Assembly (NCBI GenBank): GCA_963924555.1
Contig: OZ004590.1
Coordinates: forward strand, 372,001 to 436,000
Origin: Crambe crambe
Taxonomy: Eukaryota > Porifera > Demospongiae > Poecilosclerida > Crambeidae
Length of the DNA stretch: 64,000 bases
Direction of reading: 5' to 3'
Of the stretch, positions 49,754 to 57,318 are shown one piece after another. How positions within the stretch are numbered: position 1 is the stretch's first letter; every line of letters starts with the position of its first letter. The notes under the pieces were generated by a model. The model made no database searches. It worked only from the letters and a program-made list of their open reading frames with translations, and was not told the DNA's origin. The position numbers and the translations under genes were made by a program.

Positions 49754-49762
49754 GTCACTCTG
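49754..49762. repeat. 9-bp target duplication, left
   Basis: GTCACTCTG, repeated directly at 57310-57318 just beyond the right end of the element. Confidence 0.82.
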
Positions 49763-49918
49763 TAGTCTCGCGCGCCCGCCGCGCCCCTCCAAAATAAAAT
49801 CGGAGGGTCTGGTGTCACGCGTATATCAAACTCGTTCTCTCCTCCAGATGGGACATACTTTGAGCTGTATAGCTTATGTAGCGGGTGTGGTTTCATACGT
49901 AAAGCGTGGGTGGGAATA

Positions 49919-51435
49919 ATGCTTATGAAAGTTAGCGCGCTATTATTAAGCTTGAGTCAGGATGTCATGCAGGCTACCATAGCCAAGGTTGCTGATTCTT
50001 TCGGATTTAAACTAAAACTTGAACAAGAAAGAAGTCTACAAAAGTTTATTGCTGGTAATGATATATTCATATCTCTCCCTACTGGCTATGGAAAGTCTCT
50101 TTGCTACATCTTGTTGCCTCCTATTTTTGATATTATAAGAAAGGTTGATAAGAAATCAATTGTTTTAGTTGTGTCTCCATTGATAGCCTTAATGAAGGAT
50201 CAAGTTGCCACTGTAACAGCAATGGGACTATCTTCTACATACGTTACTGATAAGCAATCGACTACTTCTTCAGTTAAAGCAGGAATAAAGAATGGGGATT
50301 ATCAGATAATTTTTGTCAGTCCAGAAGCTCTTTTTTTGTCTACAGAGTGGCGAAATATCCTTTCTTCCGATATCTACATATCAAATTTGATAGCATTTGT
50401 CATAGACGAAGCTCACTGCGTCAAAAAATGGTAAGTTGATGAGGCCCCCTCCAACTACAACTCAAATTAAAGATAAGACTATAATATTTTTTATTTAGGG
50501 GAGAGAAGTTCAGAACTGAATTTTCTCACCTTGATGAGGTACGCAGTATCATACCCAGTACAGTTAGGGTTATGGCATTGACTGCCACGGCAACGAAAAC
50601 TACAAGAAATTTCATAATAAAAAGTTTATGCATGCAAGCACCTGAAATTACATATATTCCTCCAGCTAAGGAGAACTTGTTATATTCTGTCCTGGATAAA
50701 CCCAAAGGTGGAATTTCTGAAGCTTTCAAATCTATCGTAGACAGACTGAAATCTGAAAGAAGTAAAATGGGACATATAATAATATTTTGCAAAACGTACA
50801 ACAATGTAATATCTATATATCAATTTTTTAGACAGAAATTAGGAGAGTACTTTACAGAGCCAAAGGGCTCTCCAAATTATGTGATAAATAGAGTCGTTGA
50901 TACACATTGCACACATGAGACAGTCAAAAATAAGATAATTGCACAGTTCACCAAACCATCAGTACTGAGAGTTGTCATAGCAACCATAGCATTTGGTATG
51001 GGTATCAACTGCCCAGATGTTCGGCATGTGATACATTGGGGTGTACCTGCTGATGCTGAAATGTATGTTCAGGAAACTGGAAGGGCAGGTAGGGATGGGA
51101 AATTGGCATGTGCTACTATACTGAAGACATCATCTGATTTAGACAAACGTTACACTACTCAGCACATGATTGACTATTGTACTAACAAGTCGCTGAAATG
51201 CCGGAGGATAGTACTATTTCAAGATTTTTATGATTGTACTCTGACAGGCACTGGATGCAAATGTTGTGATATTTGCCAGAAGTCCTGCAACTGTGAACAA
51301 TGTGATTTGAACATAAATTCATTTAGTTATTATTCACCTGGTTATTACTGTATATGTTGTGTATTTACATGTACAATCATAATTAATAATTGTAGACAGC
51401 CACTTACACATACATACTGTACAAGTCAACAATAA
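49919..51435 (+). CDS. RecQ-type DNA helicase, transposon-encoded
   Basis: Exons 49919-50430 and 50499-51435 with a 68-nt GTAAGT...TTTAG intron joined in phase inside the motif-II tryptophan; 482 residues from the first ATG (an upstream in-frame GTG at 49910 is not preferred). All superfamily-2 RecQ motifs are present: PTGYGKSLCY (I, ~residue 55), VVSPLIALMKDQ (Ia), VIDEAHCVKKWG (II), ALTATAT (III), HIIIFCKTYNN (IV), VVIATIAFGMGINCPDV (V), QETGRAGRDG (VI). The zinc-binding subdomain follows (CRRIVLFQDFY, then CKCCDIC). After it come only a short Cys-rich tail and no HRDC domain. RecQ enzymes unwind DNA 3' to 5'. Here a role in processing transposition intermediates or repairing the donor site is inferred from its place in the element. 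The reading frame is intact. Confidence 0.9.
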
Positions 51436-51438
51436 CAA

Positions 51439-54400
51439 TTACATAGTGTGTTTGCTGAAGTTTTTGAAAACCCAATCCATTAGCTCCTCTTTCGATAACT
51501 TTCTTATTAAATTGGTTTTTAATTTTGCAAAAGACTCATGAGCATGTGATGTATCAAATATATTGGCATTCAACAATTGTTGTATTATCACCTTCAAGTC
51601 CTTAGACATTGATTTTTGGGAGTGCATACCACTAATCGATGGTACACCAGCTTGATAATCAAAGTTAACCAGGCTTTTGCTGAAAGAACCCACACTTTTT
51701 CCTGCCCTGACAATTGCTTTCTCAGTCTTGTTGGCTCCCAGTCCGTTGATCGACATTTTAACCATCCGATTCAAATGCTCCATATGGAGATCACAGCTGA
51801 TGTTGTGTCCAGGCAAGTCTCCGTGAGTATATAAAATACTGGGTTAGGAGTGTTAGTGCCTCCAAAGCATAGTTAGTATGACCCGTAGCTTTAAAAATGA
51901 GCAAAAAATATTTCCAAATCATTATGATGCGATCACCATCTCCTTCCCTCACTGCATCCTTGAAGTCAAGATAGAGTAGTCCAAGACTCAGGACTTCACA
52001 ACTGTAGTCACATATGGTACCACTTGCTGTACTGGTGGGCTGATTAAAGTCAGTCTTCAGGTCTACACGTAAGTCTATAATGGAGGATGACAAGTCAGTA
52101 AGAATAGATTTTCTTACAGAGTCTTCCTGCATCCACGAGTCTGAAGGTACATGAGAGGCATGGGGTATATCATTAAGAGAGGACATACCAAGGAATTTCA
52201 TGGCCGTCACAATTACACATCCGGTCACCACAACTTCTAAAAAGTCCTCATTTGCATTAACATTACTCTTAACCTCAGTGGTTACGTTTCTTCGATTTAT
52301 GAGGTTTCTCAGCTGGTACAAAGTCCCCCTCTCCATTACTGACTTCGAATTATAGAGGCGTTTCCATATTACCTATTGATAGTGAGCCATATTATAAATT
52401 AATTAATTCTTAATTGAGCCTCAACATGCCATGTACTAATTGAGAGTCTAACACATCATGGTCGAATTAATTTGAGCCAACATGCTGGTTGTGCACAATA
52501 TCTGTGCAGGTTCAAACATGTATATGGCTCAAAATTCCAACAACACCATATTCACATGCTGACATTAGCACAATATGTGCAAGTTCAAACATGCAGAGTA
52601 TCAGGTTCAAGCATGCATTCTTTTACCTCCATGAAACAAACTTTGGCATGCCAATCCTCTGCCACTGGCAAAATGCCACCCAGTGTGTCCTTTGTAAGTT
52701 CAGATGTAGACCGAATTAACTGGGCCCCCCTAGCCCGGGCCACAGATAAATAGTCACCACCAACTAATGTTGTTAGGAAGCACTTGTCTGGTGTTATCCC
52801 TGTCTCAGGAATAAACTTCTCACAGTTCACGGAGGGAACATAAGTATGGTAGTGTTCAAGGATCTCAGTCATGTCCTCATAGTTAGTTTCACTCTTGAGC
52901 AATACTCCAAGAGGGACCTGTACAAGTAATTTGCATAAAAAAGAAAGCACTTCTTCTTATAACACTTACTATTTCTGACTCCTTAGACATTTCATTAGAG
53001 AACTTGTGAGGAATGTGGCTTGGTACAAGTCCTTTGTAATCAGAGTTGAAAAATGGTAGATGTTCTACTAGCAAGCGGGACAAGAGTATTGTAAAGTCCT
53101 GCTTCAATGCTTTATAGTCCTCTTCACCAGGGATAACATCAAATATGTTAACTTCTGTTCGAATTTCACCTGACAAATTGGAAAAAGCTATGCGATCTTT
53201 TACTGCAAAGGATTGCACATAATGTAAGGATCTTGTTTGATAGTCACTTCGCATATACCTGGGGTTGACATTTTTATCTATGTTATCGAACACAATTTTG
53301 TACCCAGCATTGAGGGATAGGGGTTCCCTGATATTAACATCAGCTTCTTTTTCACAACTCTGTGATACACTCAGTGAACCGTCATAACTGGAAGAGTTAT
53401 CAGATGAGTTACTGCTGGAACTGTCAGATGTAGTGCTGCTGTTGAAATCCAGGTCATGACCTACACTTTCTAAAGAAGCTGCTGATGATGACATTGATGA
53501 ATTAGTTTCTTCATCCACATAGAGAGTTAGAGATGACTGAAGAAGTGGTGGTGATAATGGTGATGGAGAAGATTCAACATCAGTATCAATGAGGTTTATC
53601 ATGGTCGTCTCTTCGATGGTGTTGGTCAATGCCAGGATAATGTATACTTAGAGACTGCAATGCCGGCTATACCTTTTTCAAGCTCAACTGTCTTGCTGCA
53701 TTTTCCTGCCATTCTTTCACTTTCATATCGAAACCTTTACCCAACTTATCCACCAACTTGATTGTAGTACTGTGAGACATGCAGATACCCATCTTTTGTA
53801 GACGCTGATATACCTAACCAATTATTAGGGGTGTTATTATACATTTAGCTCCCAACACAAACTTACTTGTTTTGCTGAATGCCCTGCATAGAGGATCAAG
53901 GAGGTCAGTCGCTGAATTAGTGAACACGATTCTCTCTTGTTTTTGCAAATTAAACCAGCAATCGCCACTATTATAAAATTAACATTTAATCTAGGAGTTT
54001 TAGTCTGCAAGCAACATTTCAGAAGGGAGAGTAATGTAGGTGCCTTGTGTTTCAATTCATTGATGACATTGCTGACTTCAAAATCTTCCAAGGATTGTTT
54101 AGTCTTACTCTTCAAAATAGAATTGAATTTATTGGAGCACATTGCTTCAATCTCCTTCTTCAAAATATGCCCAATGGTTTTGACCATAGCTTCTTTTGTT
54201 GTTATGTTTTGTAAACATTTTGTAGCAAAGGATCGATAGTTCTTTCTTATGAGTGGTTTGCAAATTTTTCTCCTAGCTGGTGTCACTTTGAAGGATTTGG
54301 GCTTAGAGTCATAATGAATAGTAGCCTATTATAGACAGATGCTAAAGCTATAGTAGTGGGGAATAACACAGTAGCTTACTGTTAGTGATGGTGAGCATGA

Positions 54401-54855
54401 AGTTACAGAGTCCGAAGGAATAAATGCTGAAGGAAAAGTATCCAAAGATGCAGAGCCTGACTCTGAATGAAATGATCCAGATCCTGAAGGAAGAGAGCCC
54501 AAAGAAGTACTGGGTGATGAAAGAGCTGCAGAGCCAAATAAAACAGATTGATACATAGAAGAAGAAACCCTTATGCCTAGAACTCACCAGTTGTCGGCAA
54601 AAGTGGAATTGCTTTTTTAATATTGCTTTCTAGCTCTCCATAAACACTGTGGTATCTTTGTATCAATCGCACACAAGGTCTGCAAATGAATCCTTTGCTA
54701 ATTTTTGCAGCATCTACTTCAAGGTCTTGCATTTTCTTTATGAAAGTCAGTAATGTCTGCAGCACTGTGGACATAGAAGAACCACAGAGGAGCCTCCTTT
54801 GTTTTCTCTCAGCCTTACTAGAGACATCTCGCCCACAGCTACAGCAATTCTCCAT
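51439..54855 (-). CDS. DUF6589-like transposon protein, probable transposase
   Basis: Seven exons joined by introns of 54-254 nt: 54588-54855, 54380-54525, 53867-54325, 53673-53813, 53608-52970, 52917-52627, 52372-51439. The first six join in phase. Start is the ATG at 54855 (MENCCSCGRD). N-terminus: CxxC pairs (CCSC, FICRPC), ZAD-like. Then a Ser-rich linker, a basic helical region, QRLQKMGICMSHSTTIKLVD, an acidic Ser-rich segment, and a C-terminal half with VNIFDVIPGEEDY, LVGGDYLSVARARGAQ, EDWHAKVCFMEVIWKRLYNS, GTLYQLRNLINRRNV, and NISCDLHMEHLNRMVK plus GLGANKTEKAI. From memory this series belongs to the DUF6589 type of transposon proteins; a DDE-type role is plausible but unproven. Exon 7 is not a multiple of three: the frame must change near 51825, where LTLLTQY passes to THGDLPGH, so this copy probably has a small deletion. 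Without that it would be about 950 residues. Confidence 0.75.
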
Positions 54856-54980
54856 CACTCCTACAGCTAAATCTTTCCTGCTCACGGTCGGCTATTAATA
54901 GCGCGCAAGTTTAGTAATCAATTTAATAATATTCATACATTCTATCAGGCGCGCGTGCGATACTAATGAAGAACGAGTTT

Positions 54981-54987
54981 GATATAC
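54981..54987. repeat. 7-bp target duplication, left
   Basis: GATATAC before the nested element; repeated at 57241-57247. The word is part of the host element's terminal repeat. Confidence 0.88.
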
Positions 54988-57240
54988 CATAGATACTATA
55001 ACCTCCGGACACGGGATTGGAAACGGGCTCACGTGCGCCTATGACAACCATTGAATTGCTTGCGTGCACTCCGCGTTGTAATTTTTGTTGACCGCACATA
55101 AAAAGAGAATAAAGACATCGCTCTGAAACGGATGAATAGAGCGAGCCAGTAAGAAAACAGTTTTGTCTAATACTTTATACTACTCATTTTGATACTTAAA
55201 ACAAAATTTTAAACCCTAGTTCATTGATATGGCTAATTTTTGCCGTGGTTGGTCAATTCCTGGAGAAGAAAACTGTGTGAAAGGTTTTCTGTGTTGAATT
55301 AAGCTATTTTGCATTAAATTTTCCACCAAATGGTATACATAGAGATAAAGTTTGTTATAGAATGCTGTTTTTTCTAAGACTTGAATATTACTGGAAAAAA
55401 ATCTGGGTTTTGTAAGTTCAGGAGGCCATTAATGTGTGTAATTGTGTGCTCAATTTACCAGTCTGGGAGAAGTTTACTATGAAAAATAACTAGTTGATGT
55501 TGTAGCAAAATAAAAGTAGTTTTGCATGTGCATAGTTAGAGTAGGTGTAGGCCTTAAGTTACACATCATAAATATGCTATAACCATAAACTTTAAAAACC
55601 CAATTTGGTCAACTCTGAACTGAATGCATGGATAGCTACTCCTACCTGTGACGATTTTTATCGTTACATTTATATATAGTGGCTAAAAGAAGAGTTTCTT
55701 GTCTATTCTTGTCTATTTGGATGGAGCATAAAAGCAAGGAAAGGGTTTTCCAAAGTTCAGAAAAAGAAAATGCTCCTTAGCCCTGAGACTTTGCTGGGTT
55801 TGAAAATGACAGGTAGCTAGAGCTTGCTAATATTCCTTGTTATAGTATTATCATTTATGGAATATTCTGTTTTCCATTGATGGAGTTAAAAAAAAATTGA
55901 GTGAGCACCTTCTGAAAAGTTTTTTGGGTGCCAGCGACAAAGAGGTGGAACTCATGATAATCCCAGTGTCGAGGAATTTATCAACAACACTCAAGCACTA
56001 TGGGTGATTAATACATTTTGCAGACCAGTTAGAGGCAATTGCAGGGCTCACAGTTCCAAGCCTGATTTGGAAAAAGAAAATGCAAAGCAGAGAATGATTT
56101 CCAAACATGAATGAATCATTATAACAAAAAAAAAATGCATGCTGCATGAATTCTTGATTATTGGTGATGAGGACTTTGTGCAGTCCTTTAGAACATTGGA
56201 GGGACTTTTTCGACCTCTGCTTAAAGTTTCAACCACGCACCACCAAATGAGAACTCACTCCACCCTTCAATGATCATTTTCAGCAACTCCTTCCCAATTT
56301 CAACATTCATATCCAGTGCAACTATATATAGACCAATTCATTCATCTCTCATTACTTCTTCCATGATTTCATCTTTTTTCCACATGATATTTCTCTAGCC
56401 TTAATTGCTCGTACAATAGTATAGCTACCTCATTTTTTAATCAATAAAAATGTCAAATGCATCATCTATATAGATCTAATACAAAATACAAGCCACTTCT
56501 GTTCACATTGAGGATCCAGTTGCTGAAGATTGGACTGCTGCTTCTTCTATAGCTAGCTCTTCATCCAAAAGTTCCTCTAAACTCGATAACCACTCCATAC
56601 ATATTTTTTCACCATGGACTCTGTCCTTCACAGTTCTATAAATGTATCAAAATGGACATGCTGCTGTAACAGTAGATCCCCCATCATGTTCACCTAAAAA
56701 ACCTATCAGATGATATTCTGGAAAATGGGAAATCCACCATATTTTGGTAATGACACCAAGAATTTCTTCCACATTAAGATGAATCCGATGAATAAATGCT
56801 ATAATACCTTTGTTTACAGCTGACTTTAAATAGTCAGAGCTGTTTCAAGTTTGCTATGGATTAAAGCAAAACTTGAAAGCTAACATTCATTCCTGCAGTC
56901 CAGGCACCATGCATATAACTCTCTTGCAGCTTGCAGAGATGCAGAAGCGTTTGATGAAGGAAGTTTAAACCCATTATCTTCTTTTAGAATGAGTATCTCA
57001 GAATTGAGAGGGGCCTAAAAAGTGAATTACATAGCTATAATAGCTGGATTTAAGGTTACAATCTTTGCTTACTTGTAGTTGAAGACGTTTCTCCTATAGC
57101 TTCAGCCATTATCGAAATACTTGCCTTAGCTACTGTTTGGCAACGTCTTTGCTGACTCAGCAAACAACGCGGATTGTATCCTAAAATCTCGCGCGAATCA
57201 CCCGTTTCCAATCCCGTGTCCGGAGGTTATAGTATCTATG
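54988..57240 (+). mobile_element. P-like element nested in the RecQ transposon
   Basis: Inverted ends CATAGATACTATAACCTCCG and complement, continuing GACACGGGATTGGAAACG, with the 7-bp duplication GATATAC. It interrupts the right terminal repeat of the RecQ element about 130 bp upstream of the minus-strand gene's ATG. Contents: transposase remnant (+) at 55885-56085 and minus-strand coding-like pieces at 56220-57010 without recognised homology (for example SASLQAARELYAW). The remaining sequence is non-coding. Confidence 0.88.
55885..56085 (+). pseudogene. P-type transposase C-terminal remnant
   Basis: In changing frames: LLKSFLG / FFGCQRQRGGTHDNPSVEEF, then FCRPVRGNCRAHSSK. This is the counterpart of FFGCIRQHGRVNDNPTV ... 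GNCRG in the transposase at 16242-16576. The catalytic core is not recognisable in the rest of the element. Confidence 0.65.
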
Positions 57241-57318
57241 GATATACGCGTGACACCAGAGTGACCAGACCCTCCGATTTTATTTTGGAGGGGCGGGCGC
57301 GCGAGACTAGTCACTCTG

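Follow-up and report, generated by a model that had tools for sequence, protein, structure and literature searches.

AcademH, to which the element described here is compared, was reportedly defined by Kojima in 2020 (Mob DNA 11:15), in an article said, going by reference lists, to name animals in its title. Its members have terminal inverted repeats (TIRs). The available portion of one article presents AcademH as a transposon lineage with a helicase and target-site duplications (TSDs) of 9 or 10 bp, and reasons that this length, as against the 3 or 4 bp of AcademX, is seemingly tied to the encoded helicase and nuclease (PMC10045372). As far as the accessible text of three further articles goes, a RecQ helicase is named in Academ (PMC3627910), one is described in KolobokH (PMC9587614) and AcademH is cited in fungi (PMC10799480); Academ is unmentioned in PMC12730594. 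We analysed a 64,000-nucleotide stretch of the genome of the sponge Crambe crambe (contig OZ004590.1, positions 372,001 to 436,000; hereafter the window), in which positions 49763–57309 hold a DNA transposon with TIRs, a 9-bp TSD, a RecQ helicase gene on the plus strand and a gene for a DUF6589 protein on the minus strand. With a probability of roughly 0.9, this element is a copy of a low-copy transposon of AcademH type (Academ superfamily) that combines a seven-exon gene for a probable DDE transposase with a RecQ helicase gene. It and its relatives are therefore best read as new copies of a known type of element and no new class.

This assignment rests on TSD length, type of helicase and TIRs, the features that can be checked against descriptions of AcademH. 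Like AcademH, the element is a DNA transposon with a transposase, a helicase and a TSD of 9 or 10 bp (PMC10045372, in the part available). TSDs of this length were found at the window element and the copies of its main family, and mostly at more divergent elements of the same genome (8–10 bp). The helicase is of RecQ type, as indicated by Pfam matches to DEAD and Helicase_C and by its RecQ homologues, and TIRs were present in the window element and its relatives. No difference from AcademH was found in a comparison that did not extend to the ends (TAGTCTCG here) or the convergent layout of the two genes, AcademH being known to us by citation.

The outer limits of the element were as an earlier note on this DNA had drawn them. 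The 9-bp duplication GTCACTCTG lies at 49754–49762 and, in identical form, at 57310–57318, and offsets of 8, 10 and 11 bp gave 0/8, 0/10 and 5/11 matches. The left TIR (49763–49838, plus strand) starts with TAGTCTCG and contains, near 49778, 5 inserted bp that the other aligned copies lack. The right TIR (minus strand) is severed into an inner part at 54970–54986 and an outer part at 57242–57309, whose end is CGAGACTA. The two TIRs pair in three blocks, namely 49763–49785 with 57287–57309 (91 %), 49782–49813 with 57264–57295 (32 nt, 100 %) and 49808–49827 with 57241–57260 (20 nt, 100 %). What separates the halves of the right TIR is a second element of 2.25 kb at 54987–57241, outside the transposon proper, with perfect 41-bp TIRs of its own and an ATATA duplication (54982–54986/57242–57246) that marks its insertion inside the right TIR. 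The transposon proper is thus about 5.3 kb long, in agreement with three other copies of 5345, 5359 and 5400 bp (L009, L011 and L012), and we rejected a size of 7.5 kb; the earlier note's single element across the interval stands for its outer ends only. No open reading frame of at least 100 aa was among those listed inside the nested element, the last ~70 nt of which recur at no fewer than 39 other positions of the genome, a count based on scoring 40 of 146 candidates. Separately, positions 57257–57265 of the right TIR form an extra 9-nt segment that repeats the TSD of this copy in exact reverse complement and is absent from the other 22 ends compared; in the stretch L016 (near 1272), a short insertion unlike it occupies this position of the repeat. 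Chance, template switching and the excision footprint of another element are possible origins of the segment.

The transposase gene lies wholly within the repeats on the minus strand. Its seven exons comprise exon 1 (54588–54855), which encodes a cysteine-rich N-terminus with a zf-AD match below the cut-off (5.1e-4, 20.7 bits against 28); exon 2 (54380–54525), with splice sites as in L009, L011 and L012; exon 3 (53867–54325); exon 4 (53673–53813); the exon 5 region (52970–53629), with a DNxD motif containing the candidate first catalytic Asp; exon 6 (52627–52917), with DUF6589 sequence, GGDYLSVARARGAQ (candidate second Asp) and DWH; and exon 7 (51439–52372), again DUF6589, with TNYALEAL (candidate Glu). 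DUF6589 (PF20231) was matched on three of the minus-strand exons (3.2e-14, 9.1e-9 and 0.0029, the last at 16.8 bits under a cut-off of 27). In the window this gene is broken and can no longer encode the full protein: exon 7 has lost ~50 bp and is frameshifted near 51830, and the splice acceptor ahead of exon 5 has gone with a 13-bp deletion. An open frame of 982 residues was nevertheless found in three of the five copies compared (L009, L011 and L012), the two without it being L013 and the window.

The core of the DUF6589 protein is predicted to fold like the DDE transposases Hermes (hAT), P element, ISCth4 and RAG1/Transib, at 7–12 % sequence identity in the matches to Hermes, P element, ISCth4 and RAG1, and this shared fold is no proof of membership in any of these groups. 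In the model, the core probably has the RNase H fold, interrupted by a helical insertion, and belongs to a probable DDE transposase; the note had surmised a transposase in the minus-strand protein. The candidate catalytic residues were well kept among 27 aligned rows: D434 is D in 26 (one gap), D606 is D in 25 (one E, one gap) and E813 is E in 24 (three gaps). We infer from the model that the protein would act by DDE catalysis. The TSDs of hAT and P elements are 8 bp long, and neither group is known to carry a helicase gene.

The RecQ helicase gene, also inside the repeats, has two exons, at 49919–50430 (Walker A TGYGKS, motif Ia and the DEAH motif) and 50499–51435 (motifs III and VI and the cysteine cluster CKCCDIC), joined across a GT..AG intron at 50431–50498. 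Pfam matched DEAD (2.3e-24), Helicase_C (4e-15) and ResIII only, indicative of a compact RecQ; the RecQ zinc-binding, RQC and HRDC models gave no match at E <= 1. RQC and HRDC domains are not present in every RecQ. The note's statement that every RecQ motif and a zinc subdomain are present holds in part: inspection for motifs I, Ia, II, III and VI found TGYGKS, SPLIALMKDQV, IDEAHCVKKWG, ALTATAT and QETGRAGRDG, and the cysteine cluster was seen by eye, but the Pfam zinc model did not recognize it. Among relatives, the PF16124 domain is precomputed for P0044 and P0058, and P0058 matches solved RecQ, WRN and BLM chains. The helicase had also been called intact. Its frame is indeed open, yet compared with sister copies it is 6 bp shorter near 50899 and ends in a different C-terminus (10-bp indel near 51323). 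Four of the five copies compared have a helicase open to its end (L011, L012, L013 and the window), and that of L009 is cut short; the L011 helicase is without one cysteine of the cluster.

A distinct superfamily, as suggested in the note, would be defined by the pairing of RecQ with a DUF6589 transposase. In its favour, Pfam gives DUF6589 no transposase label, the name DUF6589 was not found in the literature searched, and no strong match to the Protein Data Bank (PDB) was returned by Foldseek. A lineage with a helicase and 9- or 10-bp TSDs has, however, already been published as AcademH, at least in the available text of PMC10045372, and the checkable features of our element fit it. We therefore regard a new superfamily as very unlikely.

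Slightly less probable again is an element like KolobokH, the RecQ-bearing form of the Kolobok superfamily. Kolobok TSDs are TTAA, 4 bp long, and no such TSD was seen here, where duplications are of 8–10 bp and varied sequence. KolobokH does resemble our element in joining a DDE transposase to a RecQ helicase, but it has the helicase downstream of the transposase domain, unlike the element here, and the accessible text gives it from fungi only (PMC9587614). Helitrons, too, are eukaryotic DNA transposons with a helicase. They have no TIRs and no TSDs, and encode an HUH nuclease and a Pif1-type helicase; the element here differs from them in its TIRs, its TSDs and its RecQ-type helicase, and a Helitron identity was rejected on the TIRs and the 9-bp TSD.

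The genome was searched with the left 138 bases of the element, a check along the lines proposed in the note. This returned 42 matches in 143 Mb, both ends of each copy and the window itself being counted, and 20 chosen stretches were read. Six other full copies with 9-bp duplications were recovered: as in the window, the duplication is 9/9 in L009, L011, L012, L014 and a copy on C5 (L028/L013) that is split by a nested element, and it is 8/9 in L010. L010 measures 4890 bp and L014 7131 bp; TSDs were established for complete copies, a set that leaves aside L015, L016 and L020–L023. Over the bases that align, six copies match the window copy at 98.7–99.7 % identity, and movement has therefore been recent. 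Both genes were present in nine of the 20 stretches (L009–L015, L024 and L027, the last being the window copy) and neither in L016–L021, L025, L026 and L028, of which L016–L020 and L028 cover short pieces of DNA around ends. A 354-bp derivative with the family ends and neither gene occurs at three places on C1 (L017–L019); as the flanks are identical, these are duplicates of one insertion whose surrounding DNA was duplicated.

At main-family or L024 elements, each of the nine stretches with a transposase carries the helicase too, arranged tail to tail, which bears out the view that it is no incidental fragment. Stretches with the same ends but no helicase, which the note had named as a sign of chance capture, do exist and have neither gene, but none with a transposase lacked the helicase. 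L024 is a divergent element with a helicase 61 % identical and terminal repeats of its own; its 9-bp duplication is exact, and its two genes likewise lie tail to tail. We also picked ten further RecQ-like loci (32–46 % identity) from 110 exon matches, as a sample and no census, and inspected 4 kb downstream at nine of them (35–46 % identical), L029 being left out. A DUF6589 transposase stood on the opposite strand beside eight of the nine; the sole exception was L032 (stretch L045), with no transposase in the 4 kb inspected. Four of the eight paired loci are complete elements of 5.0–5.2 kb, with TSDs of 9 bp (C1:5604000 and C9), 8 bp (C3; 10 bp with the ends placed one base further in) and 10 bp (C1:7211200), and the element nested in the C5 copy has a TSD of 9 bp. 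No end repeat was found at the elements of C14, C12 and C5:5982800, and a 61-bp repeat at C8:6364500 had no matching flanks by eye. These pairing counts refer to the chosen loci. Outside this genome, the longest contig given for a DUF6589 protein (P0016) and that given for a RecQ protein (P0076) are both of 5616 bases, which suggests one shared contig; among viral contigs, no relative of P0016 was found.

Because the two genes are found together at divergent loci and are convergent each time, their association is, as far as sequence can tell, not a chance capture. Two results nonetheless make us slightly less sure of the AcademH-type reading: the fold values are middling, and two near-identical stretches (L022 and L023) hold helicase fragments alone. 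Foldseek matches to the PDB were weak for both models.

The relationships of the helicase also bear on its origin. Among the best 120 of 7998 candidates, the sequences named near the top were from the sponges Amphimedon (P0058 and P0083) and Dysidea (P0087), and bacterial RecQs came next at 33–35 % identity. In a tree of 32 rows anchored on the query, which did not include host RECQ1/4/5, BLM and WRN, main-family helicases joined L024 (support 100/100), 21 main-family and 40 %+ rows were weakly united (88/92), and five 35 % loci of this genome formed their own group (100/100), with a DUF6589 gene beside four of the five. Bacterial RecQs and L029 fell outside the helicase group, L029 on a very long branch. 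A recent capture of a host gene is thus disfavoured, with canonical host RecQs outside the sample, and the tree proposed in the note answers the question in part. That an ordinary transposon picked up a host RecQ gene by chance is very hard to credit, for although the compact helicase (DEAD, Helicase_C and ResIII only) resembles what a fragment of a host gene could give, the pair recurs in the same convergent arrangement at divergent loci and the tree places the helicase beside L024 and further loci, with L029 and the bacterial RecQs separate from it. L029 itself is a diverged RecQ-like helicase of this genome, with a long open frame of 1479 aa and motif II reading LDEAHLFHYWQ.

Taking the element as AcademH-type, we propose that the 982-residue transposase with its DUF6589 core would bind the terminal repeats, pair and cut the ends, excise the element and insert it into target DNA through joints staggered by 9 bp. 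The compact RecQ helicase would most likely act in the same reaction, opening the ends, separating strands during excision, strand transfer or the repair of gaps, or processing the joints; the step at which it acts is our deduction. A role for RecQ in transposition is plausible, and one in resolving or restoring the donor site, as the note proposed, is putative. The window copy itself could at best be mobilized in trans. On balance we lean towards RecQ being an obligate, co-inherited part of the DDE machine, in which it would act in end opening or gap processing that leads to the 9–10-bp stagger, with DUF6589 as a catalytic core of hAT/P/RAG-like kind. If that is true, a Pfam family of unknown function could be named as a hAT/P/RAG-like transposase core.

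Although the element type is already known, the present copies come from an animal, are 98.7–99.7 % identical to the window copy and in some cases have both genes open, which makes the latter good material on the role of a helicase in cut-and-paste transposition. The predicted fold offers a structural ground for reading DUF6589 as a DDE transposase core, and if it is one, animal proteins annotated as 'DUF6589 domain-containing' could be better described.

Finally, two elements with such ends were seen inside the apparent TIRs of other such elements, with TSDs GGTGTCACG and GTCACCAGAC. One of these apparent self-nested pairs runs from L028 453 to L013 752 on C5 and the other lies in the C1:7211200 region (L051/L030/L043), a hint of self-nesting or of a target preference.
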